From: Streptomyces sp. IMTB 2501
GTDB lineage: Bacteria; Actinomycetota; Actinomycetes; Streptomycetales; Streptomycetaceae
Direction of reading: 5' to 3'
DNA: 64,000 bases
Assembly: GCF_001953885.1 (NCBI RefSeq)
Contig: NZ_MQUS01000028.1
Location: 14,535-78,534 of the forward strand
Part shown: positions 10,557 to 15,219 of the stretch, one piece after another
Numbering within the stretch: position 1 is the first letter of the stretch
Layout: each line of letters starts with the position of its first letter
Program-made: the position numbers and the translations under genes
The notes under the pieces: model-generated
The model's input: only the letters and a program-made list of their open reading frames with translations
The model's database searches: none
What the model was told of the DNA's origin: nothing

Positions 10557-10889
10557 GCCCTTCGCGCACCGCCCTGCCGCCTCGGCCGGGCTTCCCGCAT
10601 CGCGTCACCCCCGTGGACGCGATGCGGCGGCCCCGACGCGGCGGGGGGTGCCAGGCCGGGGCCACTCCGGGTGTCCCCGGACACCTGGGGAAGCGGGATC
10701 AACGATGCCGTGGCGTGATCCGGCCCACCACCTTCAGCTTGTTGCAATGCGAGGGGTGGAGCATGGTCGATACCCGCACATAACGGTGTTTTGCGACAGC
10801 CCTGTTGGAGTGAGCCGTGTTGCGGACCCGGTCGGCGCCGCGCATAGTTGCGCTGCGGAAGTGGCAGCACACCGGGGGTGAAATGCACG
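10557..10889. other. Intergenic region before the first LuxR-type regulator
   Basis: 333 bases. It holds the hairpin at 10595-10627 and, further on, less GC-rich sequence (CACATAACGGTGTTTTGCGACAG) that probably contains the regulator promoter. No reading frame is convincing. Two loosely similar GTGTTxxGCG segments (10787 and 10818 areas) may be half sites. Confidence 0.5.
10595..10627 (+). terminator. Terminator hairpin after the sugar-binding protein gene
   Basis: Perfect 12-bp stem CCGCATCGCGTC (10595-10606) with GACGCGATGCGG (10616-10627) and a 9-nt loop, 38 bases after the stop codon. No U tract. Confidence 0.7.
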
Positions 10890-11936
10890 ATGGCCGGGCG
10901 CGGGGCGGAGCAGCATCCACACGGCGCCGACCGACTGTGCGCGGCCGGGGATCGGGTGTACTCACGGGCCGTACGCCGCGGGCGTGTGCCCCGCACTGAT
11001 GCCGAGGCGGTGCCCTGCCTGCTGGAGCTGGCCCTGCTGCACCCGGACCCGGACGACATGGACTGGCTGGTGCCGACCTCCCCGCAGGAGGTCATGACCA
11101 GGCTGCTGCGCGGGGTCTACGACGAGGTCAGCGAGAGCCAGCGCCGGGTGGGCTCGGCGGTGGCCGCCTTCGAGTGGTACGCCGGTCTCGGCCGCCAGCT
11201 GGGTGCTCTGGCCGCACCGGCCGAGGGCAGCGCGATCCGGGTGCTGGACGGGCTCTCCCGGATCCAGGCCGCGATGGACGAGGCGACCGAGGCGTGCACC
11301 ACCGAGGTCCTCACCGTGCAGCCCGGTGGCATCCGCCGGGAGGCCGAGCTGACCGAGGGGCTGCACCGGGCGCTGGCCCTGCGCGGCCGGGGCGTGCGTA
11401 TGCGCGACCTGTACACGCACGTGGCCCGGCACGGGCAGGGGCTGCTCAACTACCTGGAGCTGATGGGCGACACGGTCGAGGCCAGGACGCTGGACGAGGT
11501 GATCGACCGCCTGATCCTGTTCGACCGTACGGTGGCCTTCATCCCCGCCAACGCCGACCGCACGATGGCCCTGGAACTGCGCCATCCGGCCCTCGTGGAG
11601 TACCTGGTGACGGTCTTCGAGCGACTGTGGCGCCTCGCGATCCCCCTGACGGCCCCCCTCCCCGACACCGGCATCGAGGGCATCTCGCACCGCGAGCAGT
11701 CCATCGCCGCGCTGCTCGCCGAGGGCCACCAGGACGCGGTCATCGCCGAACGGCTCGGCATCAGCGTGCGCACCTGCCGTGCGCACATCGCCCGCCTGTC
11801 GGAGACCCTCGGCGCCGCCAGCCGCACCCAACTGGGCGTGCGGATCGCCCAGGTCGGCCTGGACGGCCACCGCGGCCGCGCCCTGCCGGCCGGCGCGTTC
11901 ACGGCTCCTGATCAAGAATCCCCGAGCGTGCGATGA
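10890..11936 (+). CDS. LuxR-type HTH regulator with TrmB/PLD-like sensor region, paralogue 1
   Basis: 348 residues. The N terminus carries a family motif shared with two neighbours: CAAGDRVYSRAVRRGRVP then AVPCLLELALLHPDPDDMDWL. A central region (LDGLSRIQAAMDEATEACTTEVLTVQPGG, then DLYTHVARH, IDRLILFDRTVAFIP and ELRHPALVEYL) resembles the effector domains of TrmB-like regulators. The C terminus has a LuxR/NarL-type helix-turn-helix (ISHREQSIAALLAEGHQDAVIAERLGISVRTCRAHI). The ATG at 10890 follows GGGGGTG. It faces and overlaps by 38 bases the 3' end of paralogue 2 on the other strand. Ligand and targets are unknown; a role in controlling the neighbouring DSSW-peptide operon is an inference from proximity. 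Confidence 0.85.
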   Translation: MAGRGAEQHPHGADRLCAAGDRVYSRAVRRGRVPRTDAEAVPCLLELALLHPDPDDMDWLVPTSPQEVMTRLLRGVYDEVSESQRRVGSAVAAFEWYAGLGRQLGALAAPAEGSAIRVLDGLSRIQAAMDEATEACTTEVLTVQPGGIRREAELTEGLHRALALRGRGVRMRDLYTHVARHGQGLLNYLELMGDTVEARTLDEVIDRLILFDRTVAFIPANADRTMALELRHPALVEYLVTVFERLWRLAIPLTAPLPDTGIEGISHREQSIAALLAEGHQDAVIAERLGISVRTCRAHIARLSETLGAASRTQLGVRIAQVGLDGHRGRALPAGAFTAPDQESPSVR

Positions 11937-12897
11937 GATAGCCCAGCTGGGCCCGGCTGTCGCTGCCGAGGGTGGCCGCGAGCTTGGCGATGTGCAGCCG
12001 GGCGGTGCGGACGTTCATACCGAGGCGGTCGGCGATGACGGCGTCCGTGTGGCCCTCGACCAGCAGGGCCGCGATGGCGCGCTGGCGGGGCGTGACGCCG
12101 TCCACCGACGGCGGCTGCACCGCCTTCGGGAACATCGGCGTGGCCAGCCGCCAGAGCCGGTCGAAGGTCGTGACGAAGTACTTGATCAGGGCCGGGTGGC
12201 GGACCTCCAGGGCGAGGCTGCCGTCCTCGTTCGCGGGGACGAAGGCGACCTTGCGGTCGATGACGATGAGCCGGTCCGGCACCTCGTCGAGGCTGCGGGC
12301 CTCGGTGTCGCCGTGCCGGAAGTGCTCCAACGGCCCGTACACGAGCGGCACATGGCGCACGGTGTGCTGGTAGAGGATGCGGATCCGCCCGCCGCGGTCC
12401 AGCAGGGCCCGGTCGCGCGGGAAGGCGGTGTCGCGGGCCGCCTCGCCGCGGGCGCCGATGAGGCCGGAGTGCGGCTGAATGGTGAGGGACTCCTGGGTGG
12501 CGTCGACCATCGCGTCGGTGATGGCCCGGTTGATCTGCTCGGTGCCGCTCAGCAGGCGCAGCATCGAGGTGCCGCCACCGGCGCCGGCGCCGGGTGTCCG
12601 CTGCCGTACGTCGATCCGCATGAGCGGCTCGAACCGCGCCACCAGCCGGTCCTCGCGTCGACGTTCCTCGGCGACGCGGGCCGCGGAGGTGCGCAGCAGC
12701 CGGTGCAGGGCCGCGGCCGGCGCCACCGGTTCGAGCAGTCCGAGGTCGTCGAGGGCGGGGTGGAGCAGGCCGAAGTCGGTCAGACAGGGCACGTCGGCGG
12801 CGTCGGTGACGGGGATCCGTCCGTCGCGCAGGGCGCGTTCGTACACCTCCTGGCCGGCGGTGCACAGCTCCTCCACACCGTGCTCCCGATGCGTCAC
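11899..12897 (-). CDS. LuxR-type HTH regulator with TrmB/PLD-like sensor region, paralogue 2
   Basis: 332 residues with the same layout as its neighbours: CTAGQEVYERALRDGRIP and DVPCLTDFGLLHPALDDLG at the N terminus, a central MLRLLSGTEQINRAITDAMVDATQESLTIQPH region with LYQHTVRHVP and PDRLIVIDRKVAFVP, and a C-terminal HTH (VTPRQRAIAALLVEGHTDAVIADRLGMNVRTARLHIAKLAATLG). The GTG at 12897 follows GGGAGGGTGAGCGC. It lies 61 bases downstream of paralogue 3 on the same strand, so the two may be co-transcribed. Its start codon overlaps the end of a short frame that looks like the N-terminal motif of yet another copy. Confidence 0.85.
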   Translation of the reverse strand: MTHREHGVEELCTAGQEVYERALRDGRIPVTDAADVPCLTDFGLLHPALDDLGLLEPVAPAAALHRLLRTSAARVAEERRREDRLVARFEPLMRIDVRQRTPGAGAGGGTSMLRLLSGTEQINRAITDAMVDATQESLTIQPHSGLIGARGEAARDTAFPRDRALLDRGGRIRILYQHTVRHVPLVYGPLEHFRHGDTEARSLDEVPDRLIVIDRKVAFVPANEDGSLALEVRHPALIKYFVTTFDRLWRLATPMFPKAVQPPSVDGVTPRQRAIAALLVEGHTDAVIADRLGMNVRTARLHIAKLAATLGSDSRAQLGYLIARSGILDQEP

Positions 12898-12958: not shown

Positions 12959-13942
12959 TCAGAGGTCCTGCTCCAGCATCCCCGACTGCGCGATGAGGAA
13001 GCCGAGTTGGGCCCGGCTGCCGCTGCCCAGCGCGGTGGCGAGCTTGGCGATGTGGGCCCGGCAGGTGCGTACGTTCATGCCCAGCCGCCGGGCGATGGCC
13101 TCGTCGACGTGCCCCTCGACCAGGAGCTTGGCGATGGAGTGCTGGATCTCCGTGATGCCGTCGGGGGCGGTCTCGTAGGGGGCGCCGGCGCTCAGTGGGA
13201 CCGCGCGGGCCCACATGAACTCGAAGACCTTGATCAGATAGCGGACGAGCCCCGGGTGCCGGAGTTCCAGGGCGATCTCCCCGTCGTCGCGCGTCGGGAT
13301 GAAGGCCACGGTCTCGTCGCAGATGATCAGCCGTTCGACGAGTTCGTCGATGGTGCGGTACTCCACCTTGCCGTCGGTGAACTGGGCCACGTACGCCAGC
13401 GTCTCCGGGCTGTAGCGGGCCGGGTGCTGGTACAGCGTCCTTATGCGGCAGCCGCGTTCGATCAGCGGGCGGTCGCGCTCCAGCGCCTTGGTGAGGGTCT
13501 GTTCGAGCCGCCGGCGGCTCGGCTGCACGGTGAGCATCTCGGTCTGGCACTGGGTCGTGGCCAGATCCAGTGCCGCGTTGATCCGGTCGAGGCCTTCCAG
13601 CACGGTGATCGAGTGCGTGGACGACGTCGGCTGGGCGCTGATGCTCATGAACGGCTCGAAAGCATCGGCCAGTTCGATTGACTGCCGCCTGCGCTGGTTG
13701 ATCTCGTGCTCGATCGGGTTGAGCCGCTGGGCCAGGGCGATCGAGGGGGGTACCGGGCGCAGCCAGTTCGGGTCGTCGGGGTCGGGATGCAGGAGGGCGA
13801 ACTCCATCAAACACGGCGCGGGTTCCACATCCGCACGGGCCAGTCGTCCCGTCCGGAGAGCGTTCCCATAAAGGCGGCGCCCGTCCTCGCACAGGTCGGT
13901 CAGCCCGTGGGGATGTGTCCGCTTAGTCTCATTTATCGCCAA
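12959..13942 (-). CDS. LuxR-type HTH regulator with TrmB/PLD-like sensor region, paralogue 3
   Basis: 327 residues. N-terminal motif CEDGRRLYGNALRTGRLA then APCLMEFALLHPDPDDPNWL; central part VLEGLDRINAALDLATTQCQTEMLTVQPS, TLYQHPARYSPETLAY, ERLIICDETVAFIPTRDD; C-terminal HTH GITEIQHSIAKLLVEGHVDEAIARRLGMNVRTCRAHIAKLATALG. The only start giving the family's N-terminal length is TTG at 13942 with GGTGGAG just upstream, so the exact start is uncertain. It is divergent from the DSSW-peptide operon, with a 14/16 palindrome between them, which makes it the best candidate regulator of that operon. Confidence 0.82.
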   Translation of the reverse strand: MAINETKRTHPHGLTDLCEDGRRLYGNALRTGRLARADVEPAPCLMEFALLHPDPDDPNWLRPVPPSIALAQRLNPIEHEINQRRRQSIELADAFEPFMSISAQPTSSTHSITVLEGLDRINAALDLATTQCQTEMLTVQPSRRRLEQTLTKALERDRPLIERGCRIRTLYQHPARYSPETLAYVAQFTDGKVEYRTIDELVERLIICDETVAFIPTRDDGEIALELRHPGLVRYLIKVFEFMWARAVPLSAGAPYETAPDGITEIQHSIAKLLVEGHVDEAIARRLGMNVRTCRAHIAKLATALGSGSRAQLGFLIAQSGMLEQDL

Positions 13943-13959
13943 ATCTCCACCCCCCAGGG

Positions 13960-13975
13960 TCCTGAACGTGCAGGA
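13960..13975. promoter_or_regulatory. Near-perfect 16-bp palindrome between paralogue 3 and the DSSW-peptide gene
   Basis: TCCTGAACGTGCAGGA is identical to its reverse complement at 14 of 16 positions. It is centred in the divergent promoter region, 18 bases from the regulator's start and 80 bases before the peptide gene, as expected for an operator serving both. Confidence 0.5.
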
Positions 13976-14055
13976 ACATGATGCATCGATTGTGTGGCCA
14001 TGACGTGCCGGAATGGGCCATCGTCGTATTCGGACGGGGGAGAGGTGACCTTCAA

Positions 14056-14310
14056 ATGAGGACGAAGCCGACTATGCATAAGAGAATGCTTCGCTCGGCG
14101 CTTGTCGCCGCCTTCTCCGCCGCACTGGCCTTCGGGGCGCTGACCGGCCACGCGGGGACGAAGAGTGATGTCGCGCAGGACAGCAGTTGGCGCGTGGCTG
14201 CCGCCGGTTCGGGTGACAGCAGTTGGGTGATCGCGGCATCCGATGTCCCGGGTGACAGTTCGTGGGTCGCCCCGAGCCCGAGTGACAGCAGCTGGATCGT
14301 GCAGTCATGA
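14056..14310 (+). CDS. Secreted small protein with four DSSW repeats
   Basis: 84 residues. Basic N region (MRTKPTMHKRMLRS) and hydrophobic core (ALVAAFSAALAFGALTG) form a Sec-type signal peptide with probable cleavage around residues 33-36 (HAG-TK). The remaining ~48 residues carry DSSW four times, at 42-45, 54-57, 67-70 and 77-80, each followed by a hydrophobic pair (RV, VI, VA, IV) and separated by Gly/Ser/Ala/Pro linkers. The ATG at 14056 follows AGAGGTG by eight bases. The stop codon overlaps the next gene's ATG (ATGA). I recognise no family. The repeat layout resembles a multi-core precursor or a small secreted signal, but that is inference. Confidence 0.75.
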   Translation: MRTKPTMHKRMLRSALVAAFSAALAFGALTGHAGTKSDVAQDSSWRVAAAGSGDSSWVIAASDVPGDSSWVAPSPSDSSWIVQS

Positions 14311-14642
14311 CCACTCCACCCGACGATCGTTCCTTCCGCCGCGAAATGGCCACGGCATACCGCTCCGGCTGGCACTTCATCGACCTGGTCACCGCCATCC
14401 CCCACAGTGGTGACTCGCTGATGGTGACCGTGTTCGGTGAGCCGGTCGTCGTGACGCGGAACGAGGACGAGGACGTGCAGGCGTACCGGTGCCTGCGCAA
14501 GCCGCGGGGCGCGCCCCAGCCGGTGCGGTGTGCCGTCCGGTACGGAATGATCTTTGTGAATCTTGACCAGCGGGACCACCGGCTTGCCGAGCCGGCGGAC
14601 CAGGACGTGAGGACCATCTCGGCCACCCCCCGCAGTGCCTGA
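14307..14642 (+). CDS. Small Rieske-like protein with both His ligands replaced by Arg
   Basis: 111 residues, translationally coupled to the DSSW-peptide gene (ATGA). The order WHFIDLVTAI, LMVTVFGEPVVVTRNEDEDVQAY, RCLRKPRG, RCAVRYGMIFVNL follows the Rieske domain of ring-hydroxylating oxygenases. In a Rieske centre the cluster is held by CxH and CxxH; here the corresponding positions read C62-L-R64 and C75-A-V-R78. Either the cluster is lost, or it is held by Cys and Arg. No catalytic domain follows, and there is no signal peptide. It is probably cytosolic; it could act on or with the peptide precursor, but nothing in the sequence proves this. Confidence 0.7.
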   Translation: MTTPPDDRSFRREMATAYRSGWHFIDLVTAIPHSGDSLMVTVFGEPVVVTRNEDEDVQAYRCLRKPRGAPQPVRCAVRYGMIFVNLDQRDHRLAEPADQDVRTISATPRSA

Positions 14643-14789: not shown

Positions 14790-15182
14790 TCAGCCGTTCC
14801 CCAGCGCTCGTTCCACCGCGATCTCGATCACCACGCGCGCCGGATTCGGCCTCGGTGCCCGTTCGTAGCGCTCGGCATAGCGCCGCACCGCCTCGGCGAC
14901 CCGTTCCGGTTCCGTCCTCACCCGTGCGCGCCCTTCCAGCGTCGCCCAGCGCCGGCCGGCCACCTGGCACACCGCCACCCGGGCGCCCTCGGGCCCGGCC
15001 GCGCGCACATGCCGCACCTTCGCGCTGGTCCCCGCGGTGATCACTCTGGCCAGTCCGGCCTCCGGGTCGTACGTCACCCCCACCGGCACCACATGCGGGC
15101 TGCCGTCGGGACGGAGCGTCGTCAGGGTGCACAGGTGGCGTTCTCGCCAGAACTCCAGGTACTGCTCAGAGTGGATCGCCAT
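14790..15182 (-). CDS. PPOX-class (F420/FMN-dependent) enzyme
   Basis: 130 residues of the split beta-barrel pyridoxamine-phosphate-oxidase fold: LCTLTTLRPDGSPHVVPVGVTYDP near the N terminus, AKVRHVRAAGPEGARVAVCQVAGRRWATLEGRARV in the middle and RVVIEIAVER at the end. These actinobacterial proteins usually bind F420 or FMN and reduce small organic molecules or act in redox protection. The ATG at 15182 (MAIHSEQY) is chosen over an ATG nine bases upstream. It is divergent from clpB and shares its operator region. Confidence 0.8.
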   Translation of the reverse strand: MAIHSEQYLEFWRERHLCTLTTLRPDGSPHVVPVGVTYDPEAGLARVITAGTSAKVRHVRAAGPEGARVAVCQVAGRRWATLEGRARVRTEPERVAEAVRRYAERYERAPRPNPARVVIEIAVERALGNG

Positions 15183-15219
15183 GCCCCGCAACCTAGCCCC
15201 CGCACGGCTTCCCGCCTAC

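Follow-up and report, generated by a model that had tools for sequence, protein, structure and literature searches.

A Rieske base domain without cluster ligands at a putative tetrapeptide pheromone-receptor locus of Streptomyces

We propose that a small protein of Streptomyces sp. IMTB 2501, hereafter called the mini-Rieske, is the base domain of a Rieske oxygenase alpha subunit and quite likely constitutes the near-constant third part of a polymorphic locus for a tetrapeptide pheromone and its receptor. Four features can be read from the sequences: the loss of the cluster ligands, the conserved gene order, the identity of the peptide repeats, and a code linking two residues of a neighbouring regulator, at positions 136 and 157, to the peptide. 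We give even chances to the wider picture, in which most members of the genus would carry such a pheromone locus beside clpB, with dozens of [DN]xxW words that vary from species to species, a receptor code for the second letter in an intracellular TrmB-LuxR regulator, and a de-metallated Rieske domain as the output.

Organization and distribution of the locus

The window, i.e. the whole stretch of 64,000 nucleotides that was analysed, contains the following features of interest (LuxA, LuxB and LuxC are labels coined in this analysis):

10848..11936, + strand: LuxC, a LuxA paralogue, about 48% identical, convergent with LuxB
11899..12897, - strand: LuxB, a LuxA paralogue, about 44% identical, found in some of the loci
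12959..13942, - strand: LuxA, with a predicted TrmB-like wHTH, coiled coil, PLD-like sensor and C-terminal LuxR-type HTH
13944..13985, no strand assigned: conserved intergenic block TCTCCACCCCCCAGGGTCCTGAACGTGCAGGAACATGATGCA between LuxA and the precursor gene, a candidate promoter/operator
14056..14310, + strand: putative pheromone precursor gene, 84 aa, with a hydrophobic secretion-type leader (by eye) and four DSSW repeats
14307..14642, + strand: mini-Rieske gene, 111 aa, encoding the Rieske base domain from the N-terminus of an oxygenase alpha subunit, without the cluster-binding segment and the catalytic domain

The reading frame of the mini-Rieske is the one described in the initial annotation, running from ATG to stop on the + strand and including C62-L-R64 and C75-A-V-R78. 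Its start overlaps the stop of the precursor gene (ATGA), and in all 142 loci with a precursor found (of 151) the end of the precursor gene overlaps the start of the mini-Rieske or lies within 5 nt of it. Of 149 mini-Rieske loci, some of which repeat one genome, 144 have a LuxA homologue at most 900 bp away; the other five are the orphan copies L121 and L074, a locus cut by a contig end (L070), and L026 and L051. Of the 151 loci, 73 have flanks that suffice to judge the order of genes, and it is the same in every one, with a LuxA-family gene on the - strand upstream and ClpB on the + strand downstream; these loci hold two to five LuxA-family genes, and in 65 of the 73 a PPOX gene lies in between. 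In the window, an F420-dependent PPOX-class oxidoreductase (TIGR03618, above cut-off) is encoded at 14790-15191 on the - strand, between the mini-Rieske and clpB. The opposite strand and the absence of this gene from 8 of the 73 flanked loci suggest that it lies outside the operon. In a distant clade (L116, L118 and L119), with 41-43% identity in the mini-Rieske, the order of the locus is kept and PPOX is absent. The surplus mini-Rieske copies in L121 (2195-2518) and L074 (1876-2208) have neither a precursor nor an adjacent LuxA, and one of them is found near the end of its own contig (G023, about base 93,000).

The intergenic block at 13944-13985 is nearly identical across the sampled loci and includes GCAGGAACATGATGCA, which in L116 and L118, both from the distant clade, retains 15 of its 16 bases. 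In the genome, the core of the block has 3 sites compared with 6 for the reversed control, with one exact site and near matches no more frequent than for the control; a search for a regulon by this core was therefore uninformative, and no regulon was seen.

The mini-Rieske was found, as a matched stretch free of stops, in 122 of 150 sampled genomes of the genus, including its own; 125 genomes had matched, and G048, G055 and G086 were set aside as holding full-length oxygenase frames only. In the family-level sample it was matched in 51 of 200 genomes at E 1e-5, within one of 17 genera, and in the phylum-level sample in 8 of 296 genomes at E 1e-6, all from the same genus, together with one full oxygenase. 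It was not found outside the genus among these 200 family and 296 phylum genomes, and a plasmid collection yielded no match at E 1e-5. In 23 genomes of the genus that lack the mini-Rieske, no LuxA-like protein above 43% identity was detected at E 1e-40, which suggests that the two tend to be lost or absent together. A role in defence was considered and rejected: PADLOC has no family for the mini-Rieske, and the CARF-associated matches of the regulators are weak (best E 0.0055).

Rieske kinship and the lost cluster ligands

The initial annotation regarded the 111-aa protein as a Rieske-like fold with both cysteines kept and both histidine ligands changed to arginine, hence as a cluster-free scaffold or an unusual Cys2Arg2 site, and suggested structure prediction and an alignment of homologues as checks. 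The kinship with Rieske proteins is borne out. All 20 matches listed in a PDB sequence search were Rieske oxygenases (best E 0.0021). The NCBIfam model GbcA matched with E 9.4e-7, yet with 27.6 bits, far under the cut-off of that model, and Pfam Rieske (PF00355) failed with 13.8 bits against a cut-off of 20.3. The AlphaFold model, of moderate confidence (pLDDT 70.5, pTM 0.60), is Rieske-like and lacks the cluster-binding part; the best 50 of its 623 Foldseek matches were Rieske oxygenases with probability 1.00 and E-values from 0.0029 to 0.03, none of them at or below 0.001. VIA with the same model retrieved NagG (Z 7.8, rmsd 3.4, 72 aligned residues), with Rieske ferredoxins and further Rieske proteins next in rank; model residues 19-96 cover NagG residues 46-182. 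The fold scores are weak on their own yet agree with the sequence, and we assign the Rieske beta fold to the mini-Rieske with moderate confidence. With the alpha subunit of Rieske oxygenases the protein shares the N-terminal helix, the base beta fold, the RGAP turn and the strand that follows the cluster (VRYGMIFVNL, compared with VREGLVFVHL in the oxygenase L117); unlike the alpha subunit, it has none of the four ligands, nor the segment between them, nor the catalytic domain.

The register was established against two streptomycete full-length oxygenases (L117 and L157), for which three MAFFT modes and the ungapped BLAST stretch agree in aligning QAYRCLRKPRGAP of the mini-Rieske to RAFRNSCRHRGAP of the oxygenase. 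R64 thereby stands opposite a ligand Cys and P66 opposite a ligand His, while C62 comes two residues early, at a non-ligand Asn. MAFFT puts VRCAVRYGMIFVNLD onto the strand VPCGVREGLVFVHLG that follows the cluster, and the alignment to benzene dioxygenase from the PDB search positions VRCAVRYGMIFVNLD likewise. A deletion of about 48 residues, which takes away CPYHSW and with it the CxxH segment, follows the RGAP turn, and C75 belongs to a later strand. Measured against the CxH...CxxH ligand pattern of Rieske proteins, the mini-Rieske thus has R64 and P66 at the first pair and a deletion in place of the second, and as it stops at residue 111 the mononuclear-iron catalytic domain is absent as well. 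In this register all four cluster ligands are lost. The two arginines do not replace the two histidines, R64 being at a Cys position and the CxxH segment deleted, and neither cysteine is a retained Rieske cysteine.

The alignment of homologues comprised 119 distinct rows including that of the window, after removal of identical proteins, of the full oxygenases L117 and L157, and of L123, a 193-aa frame. Both arginines are indeed conserved (R64 in 116 of 119 rows, the other three being without the segment; R78 in all 119), but neither occupies a ligand position, and their conservation is consequently uninformative on metal binding. The Rieske base fold and the conservation of C62 (116 of 119 rows) and C75 (118 of 119) might still recommend the mini-Rieske as the holder of an unusual Cys2Arg2 or Cys-only iron-sulfur cluster. 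However, no ligand position is occupied by either Cys, the segment for the second pair of ligands is missing, the distant clade keeps the core of the fold and the locus but has no C62-L-R64 segment, and C75 is replaced by Thr in L122 and by Ser in L123, so a Cys2Arg2 site is not a conserved feature. On the register and the deletion we reject the Cys2Arg2 half of the original alternative, and we regard an iron-sulfur cluster of either kind as extremely improbable; the cluster-free scaffold is the half that stands. The loss of the cluster and of the catalytic domain might also suggest a functionless, decaying remnant. Such a remnant, which we consider just as improbable, is hardly compatible with a pN/pS of about 0.10 (roughly residues 1-91; 600 random pairs), with retention of the gene in the large majority of the genus sample, or with the conservation of the C-terminal tail. 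Its distribution and substitution pattern indicate that the mini-Rieske is a real gene under purifying selection. The tail in question, TPRSA (14625-14639 of the window), has P108 and A111 in 119 of 119 rows and follows a variable linker with low model confidence; it is possibly a binding or degradation tail.

Tetrapeptide repeats and the LuxA residues that follow them

The 142 precursors, 130 of them distinct, have 396 core Trp residues, of which 392 lie within [DN]xxW, and 137 of the 141 motif-bearing precursors hold one motif type, in 1 to 10 copies, with 31 types overall. The search pattern itself fixes position 1 (D/N) and position 4 (W), leaving positions 2 and 3 free; within a precursor these are identical in 100% and 99% of comparisons, respectively, compared with 26% just before the motif and 56% just after it. 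Identical residues differ in their codon in 411 of 1057 pairs, and 36 of 496 Ser pairs show AGY/TCN switches, which argues that selection keeps the exact tetrapeptide; in some types the selected unit is possibly one residue longer. The leader is conserved (RTKPTM...LRSVLVAAF), basic and hydrophobic, and the core is variable. In 59 of 129 precursors the first copy directly follows an AxA-like signal peptidase site, the background being 29% of positions, and signal peptidase may thus set the N-terminus in some precursors, not in all.

In 9 of the 151 loci no precursor was found by the regular expression (L046, L074, L116, L117, L118, L119, L121, L124 and L157), and in L046, L116, L118, L119 and L124 it was identified by eye. 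The precursor of L043 is present and has no [DN]xxW. Precursors of the distant clade end in DPTW or DPAW, and the regulator there has Leu136 and Val157. Ten further LuxA-like loci (L158-L167) were scanned; three were flagged, of which L161 and L162 were kept, while in L160 the single DQPW of a 196-aa frame was taken as chance. The neighbourhoods of paralogues in the own genome (L171-L174) revealed no precursor with a repeated motif.

LuxA is predicted to combine the elements that define the TrmB family, namely a wHTH, a coiled coil and a PLD-like sensor. Its model (pLDDT 78.6, pTM 0.49) matches TrmBL2 in Foldseek with E 1.4e-13 and a TM-score of 0.35 over several domains, while the TrmBL2 sequence model gives just 13.6 bits. 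The sensor superimposes on the sugar-binding domain of TrmB (Z 15.8, rmsd 2.3 over 128 residues) and on the PLD-like domain of NucT (Z 17.7, rmsd 2.0 over 134), and the C-terminal HTH, of the tetrahelical fold, on that of VqmA (Z 11.6, rmsd 1.1 over 63 residues). With Pfam GerE, LuxA scores 17.0 bits and fails the cut-off of 23.5, which LuxB (24.5) and LuxC (38.6) pass. The sensor matches PLD-like and TrmB folds, with no TPR, the peptide-binding domain of RRNPP regulators, among the fold matches listed.

LuxA was compared with the motif in the 120 distinct loci among 132 complete ones. With clpB distance removed, LuxA distance correlates with motif mismatch (partial Mantel r 0.43, p 0.001), and the signal is strongest in LuxA residues 91-175 (r 0.50). 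The mini-Rieske itself shows weak covariation with the motif (r 0.10, p 0.018, and r 0.11, p 0.008 for third codon positions) and also covaries with LuxA given clpB (r 0.37, p 0.002), which counts against a strictly constant part. Among close relatives, defined by clpB differing by less than 5% of nucleotides, LuxA differs by 20% and the mini-Rieske by 1.8% in the 16 pairs with different motifs, compared with 3% and 1.7% in the 22 pairs with the same motif, these pairs not being independent.

A column scan picks out LuxA residues 136 and 157, with NMI of 0.78 and 0.61, the next of the 45 listed rows having 0.48. Throughout the 120 loci, Ser at motif position 2 is accompanied by Met136 (63 of 63) and any other residue by Val or Ile (57 of 57); at 157, Ser or Thr is accompanied by Asp (104 of 104) and an aliphatic residue (Val, Leu or Ile) by Gly, Ser or Ala (16 of 16). 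The alternation between Ser and non-Ser, distributed exactly as Met/non-Met at 136, amounts to 18 changes on a LuxA tree built without columns 136 and 157, and to 32 on the clpB tree. In the model, residue 136 is on strand 135-140 and residue 157 on helix 147-162 of the PLD-like part.

As the rule was derived on these 120 loci, new loci provide a fair test. A tblastn search on 41 loci gave 8 distinct new LuxA sequences above 60% identity and 10 below 60%, the remainder being already used or repeats; the code holds in all 8, and also in L124. L161, which comes from a different genus within the family, likewise obeys it: here a LuxA-like protein of 37% identity with Met136 and Asp157 accompanies DSIW. 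The precursor of L161 (genome G152, 2447-2830) ends in two DSIW copies, the first directly after an ASA site. No mini-Rieske was found in G152, which suggests that the pair of peptide and receptor is older or wider than the mini-Rieske. L162 has DRGW and DTGW with Ile136 and Asp157, which fits DTGW and not DRGW, and L043 and L046 have xTEW with Leu136 and Asp157, outside both the [DN] set and the Met/Val/Ile set. We infer, with strong support, that LuxA and the tetrapeptide form a matched receptor and signal.

Proposed signalling and its relatives

The course of events that we envisage starts with a precursor that is probably secreted and then trimmed to the tetrapeptide [DN]-x-x-W (DSSW here). 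The tetrapeptide would be re-imported and bound by LuxA in the PLD-like domain, where residue 136 (Met or Val) would tell Ser from larger residues at position 2 and Asp157 would bond the hydroxyl of a position-2 Ser or Thr. LuxA would act at the conserved block and control the shared intergenic promoter, so that the peptide and the mini-Rieske would rise together. The local operon is the only target that can be named, and the mini-Rieske would therefore most naturally serve as output or feedback, presumably working via protein contacts and not via redox chemistry. The existence of peptide-regulator pairs without it (L161, L162) indicates that it is not required for signalling as such.

The pairing of LuxA with the motif might have arisen with no recognition at all, by joint recombination of neighbours, in which case the tetrapeptide could be antimicrobial, act at the surface or have some other role. 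As the two genes are neighbours, linked exchange alone would yield part of the covariation, and both the divergent orientation and the block replacement seen in pairs with near-identical flanks are in keeping with it. On the other hand, exchange of this kind does not lead one to expect that just two columns follow position 2 without exception in 120 loci and through 18 to 32 changes at 136, that the residues paired with 136 and 157 make chemical sense, or that the rule extends to another genus at 37% identity; we consider it improbable that joint recombination is the whole explanation. A matched signal and receptor leaves room for another role of the mini-Rieske, that of a chaperone or recognition protein which binds the leader of the precursor and guides its export or processing, as in ribosomal peptide pathways. 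The overlap or near overlap of the two genes speaks for such a chaperone, as does the combination of a constant leader and a variable core with a mini-Rieske that barely differs across motif types; the precursor-regulator pairs of L161 and L162, which do without it, speak against, as does the lack of a modifying enzyme among the neighbours in the window, which are the LuxA paralogues, the PPOX protein and ClpB. The chaperone is a real if lesser possibility, nearly as good as our own assignment of the mini-Rieske as an output or feedback part, which is a guess.

The components of the locus resemble known kinds (a Rieske base, TrmB, a LuxR HTH and the logic of RRNPP). Rap-Phr, PlcR-PapR and Rgg-SHP are members of RRNPP. 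As described in passages of PMC10075063, the RRNPP systems of Bacillota couple a small gene for a secreted-type propeptide with an adjacent regulator gene of matched specificity, and at the present locus the propeptide gene is likewise adjacent to the regulator gene. RRNPP regulators bind the re-imported peptide, and what is observed here in this respect is the residue code at 136 and 157. Unlike RRNPP, the sensor of LuxA matches PLD-like folds, the host is an actinomycete, and the peptide comes, as a rule, in several copies with an unvarying Trp. The same passages give small molecules as the typical signals known in the phylum, while parts of a 2016 review (PMC4748050) name gamma-butyrolactones, together with peptides that are cyclic or modified, as the usual actinobacterial signals and call the LuxR proteins of the phylum intriguing. 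No description of this locus or combination was found in the open-licence literature, going by paper titles and the opening lines of abstracts.

Should the proposal be correct, it would add a new chemical language among antibiotic-producing Streptomyces, and kin-specific communication would be explained by a polymorphic peptide that is present nearly genus-wide and whose receptor code can be read. It would supply concrete candidates for the peptides that Streptomyces senses, and a synthetic tetrapeptide of each type would be a defined reagent to wake development or silent gene clusters. A TrmB-type receptor would join peptide quorum sensing, and the Rieske fold would have been reused without its cluster.

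A short peptide signal in Streptomyces has a counterpart in the 655 Da peptide of S. coelicolor imported by BldK, which is mentioned, along with possible strain-specific peptides, in sections of a pangenome paper (PMC9640686). The coelicolor-like precursor, with DTIW, has no unmodified motif-bearing fragment of 3-10 residues near 655 Da, the sole fitting fragment being VAEVPAA (655.35 Da), without the motif, and we claim no link to BldK.

With the archaeal TrmB/TrmBL2 proteins LuxA shares the wHTH, the coiled coil and the PLD-like sensor; it differs in the additional C-terminal LuxR-type HTH and in the proposed ligand, a peptide and not a sugar. VqmA, from LuxR-type quorum sensing, is similar in the C-terminal HTH and different in the sensor domain and the proposed signal. 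As to the paralogues, LuxC is often highly conserved across loci and LuxB comes and goes between species; the residues at 136 and 157 are Ser and Asp in LuxB, and Val and Ala in LuxC.
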